64,000 nt of DNA. Origin: Clostridia bacterium. Lineage in GTDB: Bacteria; Bacillota; Clostridia; Christensenellales; CAG-138. The stretch spans positions 1 through 64,000 of the forward strand of contig JAFYOP010000010.1 in NCBI GenBank assembly GCA_017547885.1, written 5' to 3'. Made by a program: the position numbers and the translations under genes. Below, piece after piece: positions 15,514-34,795 of this stretch. Below the pieces are notes generated by a model. That model was not told the origin of the DNA and searched no databases. It saw only the letters and a list, made by a program, of their open reading frames with translations. Position 1 is the first letter of the stretch. The number at the start of each line of letters is the position of its first letter.

Positions 15514-15840
15514 TTAGTACTTGTAGAACTGCTCCACATCTACTACAAACACCGTTGCGCCGCCCATGGTAACCTGTACGGGGGCGGGGGAATTGTCGAT
15601 ATATCCGGGCACGGCAGAGGGAACCACCATGTATTCCTTGCGGGTGCTGGATTTTTCTTTGATTATTTCCAGGGTCTCATCAAGGCGGTCGGGCTCAACA
15701 CCTATCATAAGGGTGCTGTTGCCGTTGTGAAGGAAGCCGCCGGTGGAAGAGATGCGGGTGACGCTGATGCGGCGGTTGGTAAGCTCGCGGATCAGCTTTT
15801 TGGAGTCGTCATTCTGCACTATTGCGTATATAAGCTTCAT
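15514..15840 (-). CDS. darA: DarA/PstA c-di-AMP receptor (PII-like)
   Basis: 108 aa. Begins MKLIYAIVQNDDSKKL, with ISVTRISSTGGFLHNGNSTLMIGVE, the ferredoxin-like PII fold and the family's c-di-AMP binding region. It is the YaaQ/DarA/PstA protein, a trimeric receptor for the second messenger c-di-AMP, whose downstream partner is unknown. GGAGG precedes the ATG. It starts the conserved darA-holB-ricT order; yaaR, normally between darA and holB in Bacillus, is missing here. A link to potassium control (TrkAH, 45-48 kb) is plausible, since c-di-AMP commonly controls potassium uptake. Confidence 0.93.
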   Translation of the reverse strand: MKLIYAIVQNDDSKKLIRELTNRRISVTRISSTGGFLHNGNSTLMIGVEPDRLDETLEIIKEKSSTRKEYMVVPSAVPGYIDNSPAPVQVTMGGATVFVVDVEQFYKY

Positions 15841-16475: not shown

Positions 16476-17282
16476 TTAGCTTTTTTCTCCTTGGGGAGTG
16501 TTTTTGTATTTTTTCATGTGCCTTATGATGCGGGCAAAGGCGTATCCCAGCCCGGCAGCAAGAACGCCTATCACGTAAACAGGTATGCCCTCTGTCATCG
16601 GCATAATGTATAAGCCCGTAAAATTAAAGGCTATGTGCAGGATAATAGGGGCCATGAGGGTGCCGTATATATCCAACACCAGGGTAAGGCCAATACCCAT
16701 AAGGAAGGCGTAGATTATCCAGACAGGGTCCTGATGCATAAGGCCGAACAGGGCGCAGGACGCTGCGATGGCGATAAAAGGACGGGAGGTATTTTTAAAT
16801 GAGCCGTATATGGCTCCCCTGAACAGCAGCTCTTCCGCAATAGGTGCAAAGACTGCCGCGGAAAGAAGCAGTTCCAAAGGTGAGGCTGAGGTGCCTTTGG
16901 CAAAGGCGGTGCTGTATGAATCCATCAGTTCTTTAGGGATAGGCAGCAGAGACAGCAGCATGGATATCAGAAAGGCAAAGCACATGCCGGAAAACAGGCA
17001 GATTGCCGACTCTTTAAGGGAAAGAGCCTTGAAGGGCATAGCATCCTTTGCTGAGGTGCTTTTGCGTCGATACAGCAGCAGGCACAGTATTATCAGCGCA
17101 TTATGAACCAGAAGGATAAGGGAGGATTTTTCTGCAAGGTACGCTTCCATTGCTCCCTGAATATCCCCCTGAACACCCATGCCCCCTATGGCGGCGAATA
17201 CCGTCATAACAAGGGCCTGAGTGAGGAAATACAGCAGGAGTATTATAAGTATTTTGATGAGGGTATTTAAGCTTTGTTTCAT
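16476..17282 (-). CDS. CPBP family intramembrane metalloprotease
   Basis: 268 aa from the ATG at 17282 (MKQSLNTLIKILI); an upstream in-frame start is less likely because the added residues are soluble and hydrophilic. About eight membrane helices. The CPBP/Abi motifs are visible: EELLFRGAIYG (EExxxR), then FGLMHQDPVW (FxxxH) and HIAFNF (HxxxN). These are the putative zinc/catalytic residues of Rce1-like proteases that cut prenylated or bacteriocin-type substrates in the membrane. Ribosome site is weak. Substrate unknown. Confidence 0.9.
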   Translation of the reverse strand: MKQSLNTLIKILIILLLYFLTQALVMTVFAAIGGMGVQGDIQGAMEAYLAEKSSLILLVHNALIILCLLLYRRKSTSAKDAMPFKALSLKESAICLFSGMCFAFLISMLLSLLPIPKELMDSYSTAFAKGTSASPLELLLSAAVFAPIAEELLFRGAIYGSFKNTSRPFIAIAASCALFGLMHQDPVWIIYAFLMGIGLTLVLDIYGTLMAPIILHIAFNFTGLYIMPMTEGIPVYVIGVLAAGLGYAFARIIRHMKKYKNTPQGEKS

Positions 17283-17321
17283 TATAAAAAAAGAACCTGT
17301 ATTTTTATGTGATTCTATTTT

Positions 17322-17350
17322 AGCATAAAAATATTGTGATGTGTTGTTAA
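17322..17350 (-). promoter_or_regulatory. Candidate promoter of the CPBP operon
   Basis: On the minus strand: TTAACA (17345-17350), 17-base spacer, TATGCT (17322-17327), about 40 bases before the ATG at 17282. Confidence 0.45.
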
Positions 17351-17376
17351 ATTTTTTGGGATAGCGGGCAATGCAG

Positions 17377-17436
17377 AAAAAAGCCCTCCAAACGGTGGAG
17401 GGCATAAAGAATCGAAAAGCGGCAGATGCCGCTTTT
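17377..17436 (-). terminator. Double terminator after the XRE regulator
   Basis: Two hairpins follow the XRE gene on the minus strand: AAAAGCGGCA / TGCCGCTTTT (17415-17436), then GCCCTCCA / TGGAGGGC (17383-17403) followed by TTTTTTC. Confidence 0.88.
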
Positions 17437-17450
17437 TGAGGTTTGCAGGC

Positions 17451-17987
17451 TTATCTCCGGCCTTTGCCGGAAAGAGCGAGCCCTGCTATTGAGGCGGCCA
17501 GCAACAGACATACAAATATTACCATGGGCCAATTCAGCGAAGCCGAGGATATGTATATGGAGGTTGGTCCGTCTGCCCCGCCTATAACACCCACTGATGC
17601 AGCGTCAACTCTTAAAGAAATACCCGCCAGAGCAGGAACGATGGCATAAAAGAGAAGACAAACGCACAGCACGCACAGCGCTGCGGATATCCACCTTAGC
17701 GCCCTGCGGTTCCGCTCATTGCGGCGGGCAAGGGAAGCGTTTTCCCTTTCCAGCTTTTCTGCAAGGTCTGCCATGCTTTCGCTCGGGTCAGATATTTCAT
17801 CGCCAAGCAGCAGGGAGGGGGCAACACCAAGGCAGGCGGAAAGCTTTATCAGCATATCCGCATCCGGCACGGACAGGCCCTGTTCCCATTTTGACAGGGT
17901 TTGGCGCACTATATTCAGCTCATTTGCAAGTTCTTCCTGGGAAAGTCCCTTTGCATTGCGAAGATTCTTTATGTTTTCATTAAGCAT
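17451..17987 (-). CDS. XRE-type HTH regulator with membrane tail carrying a Na+-pump-like motif
   Basis: 178 aa. Residues 6-60 are a Cro/C1-type helix-turn-helix (GLSQEELANELNIVRQTLSKWE). A short charged helix at 70-95 is followed by a membrane helix at about 98-121, then a loop of about 30 residues and a second helix at about 153-173. The loop holds VIGGADGPTSIYIS (135-148), which is nearly identical to IIGAADGPTSIYVA in the sodium-pump beta subunit encoded at 33680-34795. In that family the aspartate is a sodium-binding residue (D203 in Klebsiella OadB). A membrane-bound regulator with this motif is unusual. The DNA target and ligand are unknown. GGAGG precedes the ATG. Confidence 0.85.
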   Translation of the reverse strand: MLNENIKNLRNAKGLSQEELANELNIVRQTLSKWEQGLSVPDADMLIKLSACLGVAPSLLLGDEISDPSESMADLAEKLERENASLARRNERNRRALRWISAALCVLCVCLLFYAIVPALAGISLRVDAASVGVIGGADGPTSIYISSASLNWPMVIFVCLLLAASIAGLALSGKGRR

Positions 17988-33679: not shown

Positions 33680-34795
33680 TTGGAACTGTTCCTGGAGCTT
33701 TTCGGCAACGTACTGAACTTTACCTGGCAGCAGGGCCTGATGATCGTCATCGGCGGTGTGCTTATCTGGTGTGCCATCAAGAAGGAGATGGAGCCTACTC
33801 TGCTTCTGCCCATGGGCTTTGGCGCAATACTGGTAAACCTGCCCTTTGTAAATACCGAGGCAATCGAGACCCTCTTTGAAGCAGGTATAGCCACCGAGCT
33901 GTTCCCGCTGCTGCTGTTCATCGGCATTGGTGCCATGATAGACTTTGGCCCCCTCCTTTCCAATCCCAAGATGATGCTGTTCGGCGCTGCCGCTCAGTTT
34001 GGTATTTTCTTTACTCTGGGCATGGCCGTGCTGCTGGGCTTCCAGCTGCAGGATGCCGCAAGTATCGCCATAATCGGCGCTGCGGACGGCCCCACCAGCA
34101 TTTACGTTGCAAACTACTTTAATTCCAAGTATCAGGGAGCTATTATGGTAGCCGCATACAGCTACATGGCACTGGTTCCCATTGTGCAGCCTCCCGTTAT
34201 CAAGGCCTGCACCACCAAGAAGGAACGTATGATCCGCATGCCCTACAATCCTGCTGCGGTATCTCATACCACTCGTATACTTTTCCCCATATTCGTTACC
34301 GTTATCGCAGGTACCATCGCCCCCAAGAGCGCTGAGCTTATCGGCTTCCTGATGTTCGGCAACCTTATCCGCGAGTGCGGCGTGCTGGGCAGCCTGTCCG
34401 AGACCGCCCAGAAGGATCTTGCAAACCTCATCACTCTGGTGGTGGGCATTTCCGTATCCTTCCGCATGAAGGCCGAGATGTTCGTAACCATCGAGACCAT
34501 CGTTATCCTGCTGCTGGGCCTTGTGGCCTTCATATTTGACACTGTGGGCGGCGTAATGTTTGCAAAGCTCCTCAATCTGTTCAGCAAGAACAAGATCAAC
34601 CCCATGGTTGGAGCTGCAGGCATTTCCGCATTCCCCATGAGCAGCCGCGTTGTGCATAAGATGGGCCGTGACGAAGACCCCGGCAACTTCCTGCTGATGC
34701 ATGCCGCAGGTGCGAATGTCAGCGGTCAGATCGCCTCCGTAATCGCAGGCGGCCTGGTGATCACTCTTATCGAGAACGCCATTGCGGCCCTGTAA
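33680..34795 (+). CDS. Sodium ion-translocating decarboxylase beta subunit
   Basis: 371 aa with a TTG start (CGGAGG 9 bases upstream; no ATG fits). About nine or more hydrophobic segments. Signature IIGAADGPTSIYVA (131-144), whose aspartate is a sodium-binding residue in this family, and VPIVQPPVIK near 180. It is the membrane pump subunit (OadB/GcdB/MmdB) that couples decarboxylation to sodium export. Its usual alpha and biotin-carrier partners are not in the window; only a small OadG-like gene follows. The acyl substrate cannot be told. Confidence 0.93.
   Translation: MELFLELFGNVLNFTWQQGLMIVIGGVLIWCAIKKEMEPTLLLPMGFGAILVNLPFVNTEAIETLFEAGIATELFPLLLFIGIGAMIDFGPLLSNPKMMLFGAAAQFGIFFTLGMAVLLGFQLQDAASIAIIGAADGPTSIYVANYFNSKYQGAIMVAAYSYMALVPIVQPPVIKACTTKKERMIRMPYNPAAVSHTTRILFPIFVTVIAGTIAPKSAELIGFLMFGNLIRECGVLGSLSETAQKDLANLITLVVGISVSFRMKAEMFVTIETIVILLLGLVAFIFDTVGGVMFAKLLNLFSKNKINPMVGAAGISAFPMSSRVVHKMGRDEDPGNFLLMHAAGANVSGQIASVIAGGLVITLIENAIAAL

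Follow-up and report, generated by a model that had tools for sequence, protein, structure and literature searches.

Relatives of the regulator and of its loop segment

CadC and ToxR carry a winged-helix domain, one transmembrane (TM) helix, and a folded sensor domain. Regulators with an HTH_3 domain and two C-terminal TM helices are common in Clostridia, and in those compared here (L035 to L043) the loop between the two helices holds the short consensus AVAGTILHGxE. OadB, GcdB, and MmdB are the beta subunits of decarboxylase sodium pumps (Pfam PF03977, TIGR01109); in OadB, the tip of helical hairpin H1 holds Asp203, and Ser382 of H2 and Asn412 are required as well for sodium to bind (PMC7274780).

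The regulator described here is encoded in a 64,000-nucleotide stretch of DNA from a Clostridia bacterium (the window). Like CadC and ToxR, it has a cytoplasmic DNA-binding domain tethered through the membrane to an extracytoplasmic part, but it differs from them in its Xre HTH, its two TM helices, and its short loop in place of a sensor domain. With L035 to L043 it shares the HTH, coiled coil, TM1, TM2, and basic end (∼41 to 44% identity), while in place of their loop consensus it carries a segment shared with OadB, GcdB, and MmdB (S-I-G-I-I-G-G-A-D-G-P-T-[SA]-I-[FY]-[VL]-[AST]), the sodium-site Asp included. Unlike OadB, it has no ten TM helices, second hairpin, Ser382/Asn412, trimer scaffold, or cytoplasmic cavity. 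Also unlike in OadB, the motif here occupies a polar loop on the exported side, and the proteins other than OadB that carry it (carriers) allow E, K, or R at position +7 and Y for the tip alanine. An identical motif lies just outside the last TM helix of BlaR1/MecR1-type M56 proteins (L148, L150, L151, L296, and L297), which are zinc-protease sensors with no other relationship to the HTH protein. The regulator is a new variant among membrane-tethered Xre regulators, and the whole module may represent a new kind; the 17-residue motif looks less like a simple sodium sensor than like an unrecognized stand-alone module. We found no paper on the GADGPT motif in the open-licence literature, where the matches listed for the string GGADG dealt with immune-receptor sequences, nucleotide haplotypes, and a food peptide instead of the OadB-type motif.

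A membrane-tethered Xre-type protein with an OadB-type loop

The original prediction of a gene at 17451 to 17987 was correct except for its strand: the gene is real but runs on the minus strand (17987→17451), and the plus-strand reading is interrupted by stops. It lies 125 bp downstream of ileS, and its features are collected in Table 1. The HTH_3 domain scores well above the family cut-off of 23 bits (PF01381), and an N-terminal DNA-binding domain followed by TM helices gives the layout of a membrane-tethered one-component regulator, whose extracytoplasmic part consists only of a 33-residue loop with the motif. In the AF2 model the linker helix runs unbroken into TM1 (residues 72 to 121), a second helix covers residues 153 to 177, and the protein ends after TM2 in the basic sequence SGKGRR. 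The structure prediction proposed earlier for this tail thus yields two helices but does not resolve the motif, because pLDDT over it is only 41 to 45. The probable coiled coil suggests that the protein may dimerize, and the loop would face the exported side since the HTH is cytoplasmic and one TM helix lies between them. The combined evidence supports a membrane-tethered Xre/Cro-type protein with an OadB-type motif in an exported loop.

Table 1. Positions of the regulator, its parts, and related features in the window
Feature	Position	Strand	Basis
Two terminator-like hairpins just after the regulator gene	17383..17436	(-)	Scan, 6 found vs 1.9 expected in region
Rce1/CPBP-like gene	16476-17405		Pfam Rce1-like
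Regulator gene (HTH_3 and two TM helices)	17451..17987	(-)	ORF, 178 aa, ATG start; Pfam HTH_3 E=2.3e-15
HTH_3 DNA-binding domain, residues 6-59	17811..17972	(-)	Pfam 56.8 bits; AF2 five-helix fold, pLDDT 71-83
Linker helix/probable coiled coil, residues 72-100	17688..17774	(-)	AF2 helix 72-121; conserved, 5 homologs
TM1, residues 103-121	17625..17681	(-)	Hydropathy 2.67
OadB-type motif SVGVIGGADGPTSIYIS, residues 131-147, exported loop	17547..17597	(-)	Pfam OAD_beta 113-149, E=5.4e-7
Asp139 of the motif	17571-17573	(-)	
TM2, residues 155-173	17469..17525	(-)	Hydropathy 2.57
Genuine OadB-type pump beta subunit (comparison)	33680..34795	(+)	Pfam OAD_beta E=2e-148
Motif of the OadB at 33680	34061-34111	(+)	

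The motif had been placed at residues 135 to 148, with about 11 of 14 positions matching the OadB encoded at 33680. Both the motif and the match are real, but VIGGADGPTSIYIS spans residues 134 to 147 and is identical to IIGAADGPTSIYVA (OadB residues 131 to 144) at 10 of 14 positions, and likewise at 10 of 14 to the second OadB of the genome. Its location between two membrane helices agrees with the predicted TM1 and TM2. The Pfam OAD_beta score of 29.4 bits falls under the family cut-off of 31.6, as expected for a mere fragment of the family, and the alignment stops at profile position 132 of 349; TIGR01109 matches residues 122 to 149 (E=1.9e-6), and the closest relative of the motif in the PDB is an oxaloacetate decarboxylase beta chain (6iva, E=0.002). 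A DNA pattern for G[AG]DGPT has four matches in the 1.94-Mb genome versus none with a reversed control. The resemblance to OadB is thereby confirmed as more than chance. Of the hallmarks of OadB, the regulator has the H1-tip GADGPT with the sodium-site Asp (IGGADGPTSIY at residues 135 to 145), but the full-length fold of ten TM helices is replaced by two in 178 aa, and there is no H2 segment or counterpart of Ser382 (at the H2 tip) or Asn412.

The regulator gene probably stands outside an operon with the Rce1/CPBP-like gene, because the two terminator-like hairpins intervene; this neighborhood is also not shared by two HTH relatives with the motif (L156 and L157, below). A cyclic-di-AMP receptor gene of the window (15514 to 15840, minus strand; CdAMP_rec E=3e-35) lies downstream of the HTH gene, a few genes away.

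Recurrence of the motif in otherwise unrelated proteins

Four more HTH-2TM proteins carry the motif, so the regulator is not alone in its class. They comprise a paralog in the same genome (L156, at C60:105240; 46% over residues 1 to 170) and a relative from another genus (L157), both with the motif in the same loop, along with two proteins from another family (L353 and L354) that have the variant IGGYDGPT and were found in a tail-profile search of 391 genomes of the class. All four are ∼40 to 43% identical to the regulator, and the tails of the five proteins have no longer invariant run than IGG-[AY]-DGPT-x-I, while close HTH-2TM homologs elsewhere (L035 to L043, L356, L360, and L363) carry another loop.

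Beyond this class, we searched for carriers with a 22-position motif profile and a lipoprotein-context profile and then translated the loci. At least 72 non-OadB carriers were recovered from Clostridia-type bacteria, and with the motif masked (E<1e-4) they fall into 25 otherwise unrelated clusters. Their Pfam domains include Rhodanese (7), Big_14 (7), Peptidase_M56 (5), HTH_3 (3), HAAS (3), and Cyclophil_like2 (2), with single carriers of DUF1287, SBP_bac_3 plus SLH, DUF6034, PG_binding_1, and DUF5050. HAAS-TM proteins are among the carriers. Most carriers are not regulators: they include lipoproteins with the motif right behind the lipobox Cys, small proteins with one or two TM helices (among them three clusters of 2-TM proteins and a set of 48- to 61-aa 1-TM proteins), a protein with four to five TM helices (L155, L200), and a soluble family of ∼510 to 520 aa. 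This last family (L149, L152, and L164 to L166) is unnamed, ∼40 to 57% identical overall, and has no signal peptide; IG[IV]IGGADGP stands near its C terminus, L149 has no Pfam match beyond the motif, and some members lie on IMG/VR contigs. The breadth of these 25 clusters and their independent codon spellings rule out the gene-fusion artifact that had been raised as a possible refutation; an assembly artifact is likewise countered by carriers in the genomes of Butyrivibrio sp. INlla14 (four) and Ruminococcus turbiniformis (one). Because 54 of 60 scanned carriers match OAD_beta at E≤1e-3, public annotation may misname some of them as sodium-pump subunits, a naming against which we would warn.

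The breadth of carriers also bears on the original prediction that the protein may sense sodium or another cation, with Na+ bound through Asp139 changing DNA binding. The aspartate is unchanged in all 67 scored motif copies, and the carriers include several sensors and regulators (HTH, HAAS, M56). That this residue binds sodium in OadB is correct, as Asp203 sits at the H1 tip and D203A abolishes Na+ binding (PMC7274780). However, the OadB site requires Ser382 and Asn412 as well, which are missing from the regulator and the carriers, and one exported loop cannot rebuild it, so sensing by the loop alone is unlikely. The motif context is moreover exposed and polar, position +7 is variable, the tip alanine is Y in two HTH orthologs, many carriers are rhodanese or Ig-like lipoproteins or anchor-less proteins, and an invariant D-G is just what a tight turn would produce. 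We therefore consider cation sensing very improbable, and the claim is not supported.

Position of the motif next to membrane anchors

The motif core mostly lies ∼10 to 20 residues from a predicted TM edge or just past a lipobox Cys; in the M56/BlaR1 carriers it lies just beyond the last TM helix, on the outer side. In lipoproteins the lipobox places the motif on the outer side, and the same side follows for HTH, HAAS, and M56 carriers from a cytoplasmic domain or from known family topology, which for HAAS and M56 we take to put the motif outside. Homologous pairs that have swapped anchors keep the motif adjoining (L204 lipoprotein versus L307 TM; L290 lipoprotein versus L298 TM). Export and anchoring are not universal, because neither a TM helix nor a signal peptide is predicted in the ∼510- to 520-aa family or in L301 to L303.

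Strict peptide conservation at a juxtamembrane position on the exported side, just behind lipid anchors or just ahead of C-terminal TM-plus-basic tails (L209, L357, L146, and L147), could also mark a processing site, where the carrier would be shed, trimmed, or anchored by a membrane-associated protease or transpeptidase; for the HTH protein, a cut between the TM helices would begin release of the DNA-binding part. The arrangement is not that of an LPXTG- or PEP-CTERM-type sorting signal, in which the motif is always followed by a TM helix and a basic C terminus: this order holds for the HTH and small TM carriers, but in lipoproteins and M56 proteins the anchor precedes the motif. Processing is unlikely, given that the motif can precede or follow the anchor, lie between TM helices, occur in tandem, and appear in two anchor-less families, that its long two-sided hydrophobic conservation exceeds what cleavage sites usually need, and that no linked protease was found, the neighboring Rce1-like gene lying behind terminators and being absent beside L156 and L157.

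Selection on the peptide and its relation to OadB

The amino acid match among carriers was imposed by the search, but codon divergence was not, and the 56 GGADGPT copies have 56 different DNA spellings with a third-position identity of 0.349. The motif also persists inside the diverged HTH, rhodanese, and ∼510- to 520-aa families, and codon divergence combined with this persistence indicates selection on the peptide. A mobile or repeat element acting at the DNA level, like the Rickettsia palindromic elements, is rejected by the same spellings and by the lack of nucleotide similarity. The module consensus is S-I-G-[IV]-I-G-G-A-D-G-P-T-x-I-[FYI]-[VLI]-[AST]. By column comparison, the segment shared with OadB spans positions −5 to +11 around the first G, and beyond it the carriers are polar, unlike OadB; position +7 is restricted to S/A in OadB but takes S/A/E/N/T/V, K/R/D, and others in carriers.

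Carrier motifs are closest to the OadB of their own genome (0 of 2,000 genome permutations; p=0.02 and 0.013 within two groups), and in one Lachnospiraceae group OadB reads AISIIGGADGPTSIFLAGK while carriers read SISVIGGADGPTSIFLAGR/K. This likeness fits an origin from OadB or a shared reader, and the tracking is in itself no evidence of docking. Recent copying from the genome's own OadB was not seen for the regulator (4 identical codons versus 4.2 expected); the overall codon excess is weak (ratio 1.19 to own OadB versus 1.10 to the OadB of other genomes), and at most some carriers, L107 and L203, are recent copies. Likeness to own-lineage OadB, the codon identity slightly over expectation in L107 and L203, and the position beside anchors would all suit a structural loan, in which a stretch taken over from OadB forms an inert hairpin or turn, capping a TM helix or holding a domain away from the membrane, and has no ligand or partner. 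Yet inert spacers are not kept near-identical over 10 to 12 residues in 25 unrelated families whose remainder is ∼40% identical, motif-less homologs do without the segment, and the polar flanks speak against an inserted hairpin. For a re-entrant loop like that of OadB, the fallback of the original prediction, the hydrophobic arms (∼4 + 4 residues) are too short. A structural loan is accordingly a weak candidate, about as unlikely as processing.

Carriers are restricted to the sampled Bacillota groups, occurring in 15 of 148 genomes of the class sample versus 0 of 299 from Bacteroidota and Pseudomonadota; among genomes with motif-search matches the figures are 15 of 112 versus 0 of 76 (Fisher p=5e-4). 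None was found in 99 Bacteroidota genomes (29 with OadB-type matches) or in 200 Pseudomonadota genomes (47 with such matches), where two short frames considered as carriers were truncated OadB. OadB is present in each of the 11 high-quality genomes with carriers in the class sample (Fisher p=0.03, uncorrected for phylogeny). Strict dependence on OadB is rejected by one carrier genome (G625, with L302) that shows no OAD_beta match.

A candidate recognition element at the membrane surface

Starting from the observed anatomy, recurrence, position, and peptide-level conservation of the module, we tentatively read it as a membrane-proximal recognition (docking) element to whose partner the regulator responds, a proposal that we regard as plausible but short of probable. 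The loop between TM1 and TM2 would display the 17-residue module, whose sequence is homologous to the tip of hairpin H1 in OadB-type sodium pumps, on the outer face, where a putative common partner at the outer membrane surface would bind it; binding could then be relayed via TM1/TM2 and the coiled coil to alter the HTH dimer and its DNA binding. For this reading we infer the topology in individual cases, the partner, the direction of the signal and its transfer to DNA, and the DNA targets. Genomes with a single carrier hold no obvious second component. A wider version, possible but doubtful, is that Clostridia have repeatedly recruited the segment as a membrane-surface module not described before, derived from or coevolving with OadB. 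Through it, diverse regulators, BlaR1-like sensors, and lipoproteins would all be tied to a single partner or state, which might be the decarboxylase pump or its sodium economy, and the HTH protein would form the transcriptional branch. A near-identical peptide in ∼25 unrelated kinds of protein must be read by something, and identifying that reader could assign functions to dozens of uncharacterized gut-bacterial lipoproteins, sensors, and regulators at once.

Tandem copies and genomes with several carriers

Some carriers hold the motif in tandem: L107 has six copies and L148 has two, and L300 is a further tandem carrier. Several carriers per genome occur in G000 and G250. Together with a strand-turn-strand pattern and a G-rich DG turn, these could point to homotypic assembly, in which motif copies, perhaps including that of OadB in an exposed state, bind one another in a beta-arch or zipper and cluster the carriers at the membrane in the manner of amyloid signaling motifs. 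We consider this quite improbable: many genomes have one carrier besides OadB, whose own motif is buried in the membrane core, and AF2 gives no confident beta prediction for the HTH protein or the ∼510- to 520-aa family, the model of which has low confidence at the motif.

A search of IMG/VR returned four real carriers, and a search of plasmids returned none. Phage-borne carriers were also considered, but the four matches read from GenBank "phages" (MT835763, MT838470, MT836692, and OR846603; L382 to L385) are full-length bacterial OadB genes and hence host DNA, so that these records look like host contamination.

The tandem protein L107 (L107:2082-6110, Candidatus Fimadaptatus) is an exported-looking protein of 1,343 aa whose six motif copies are partly degenerate and spaced ∼31 residues apart; in the last copy, 13 of the 15 comparable codons agree with its own OadB. 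The BlaR1-type M56 carriers lie at L148:61-1977, L150:3774-6164, L151:4155-5807, L296:2976-5156, and L297:2214-3866, and in L148 and L151, which are from the same genus, the M56 gene stands behind a BlaI-like gene with an OadB gene within ∼4 kb. In Butyrivibrio sp. INlla14, three motif lipoproteins are encoded within ∼9.5 kb of one contig (L046:2072-3881 and L290:3495-4268), near genes for a PadR-like regulator and a HAAS-like multi-TM protein; the latter has the sequence DASISVIGS in its first exported stretch.
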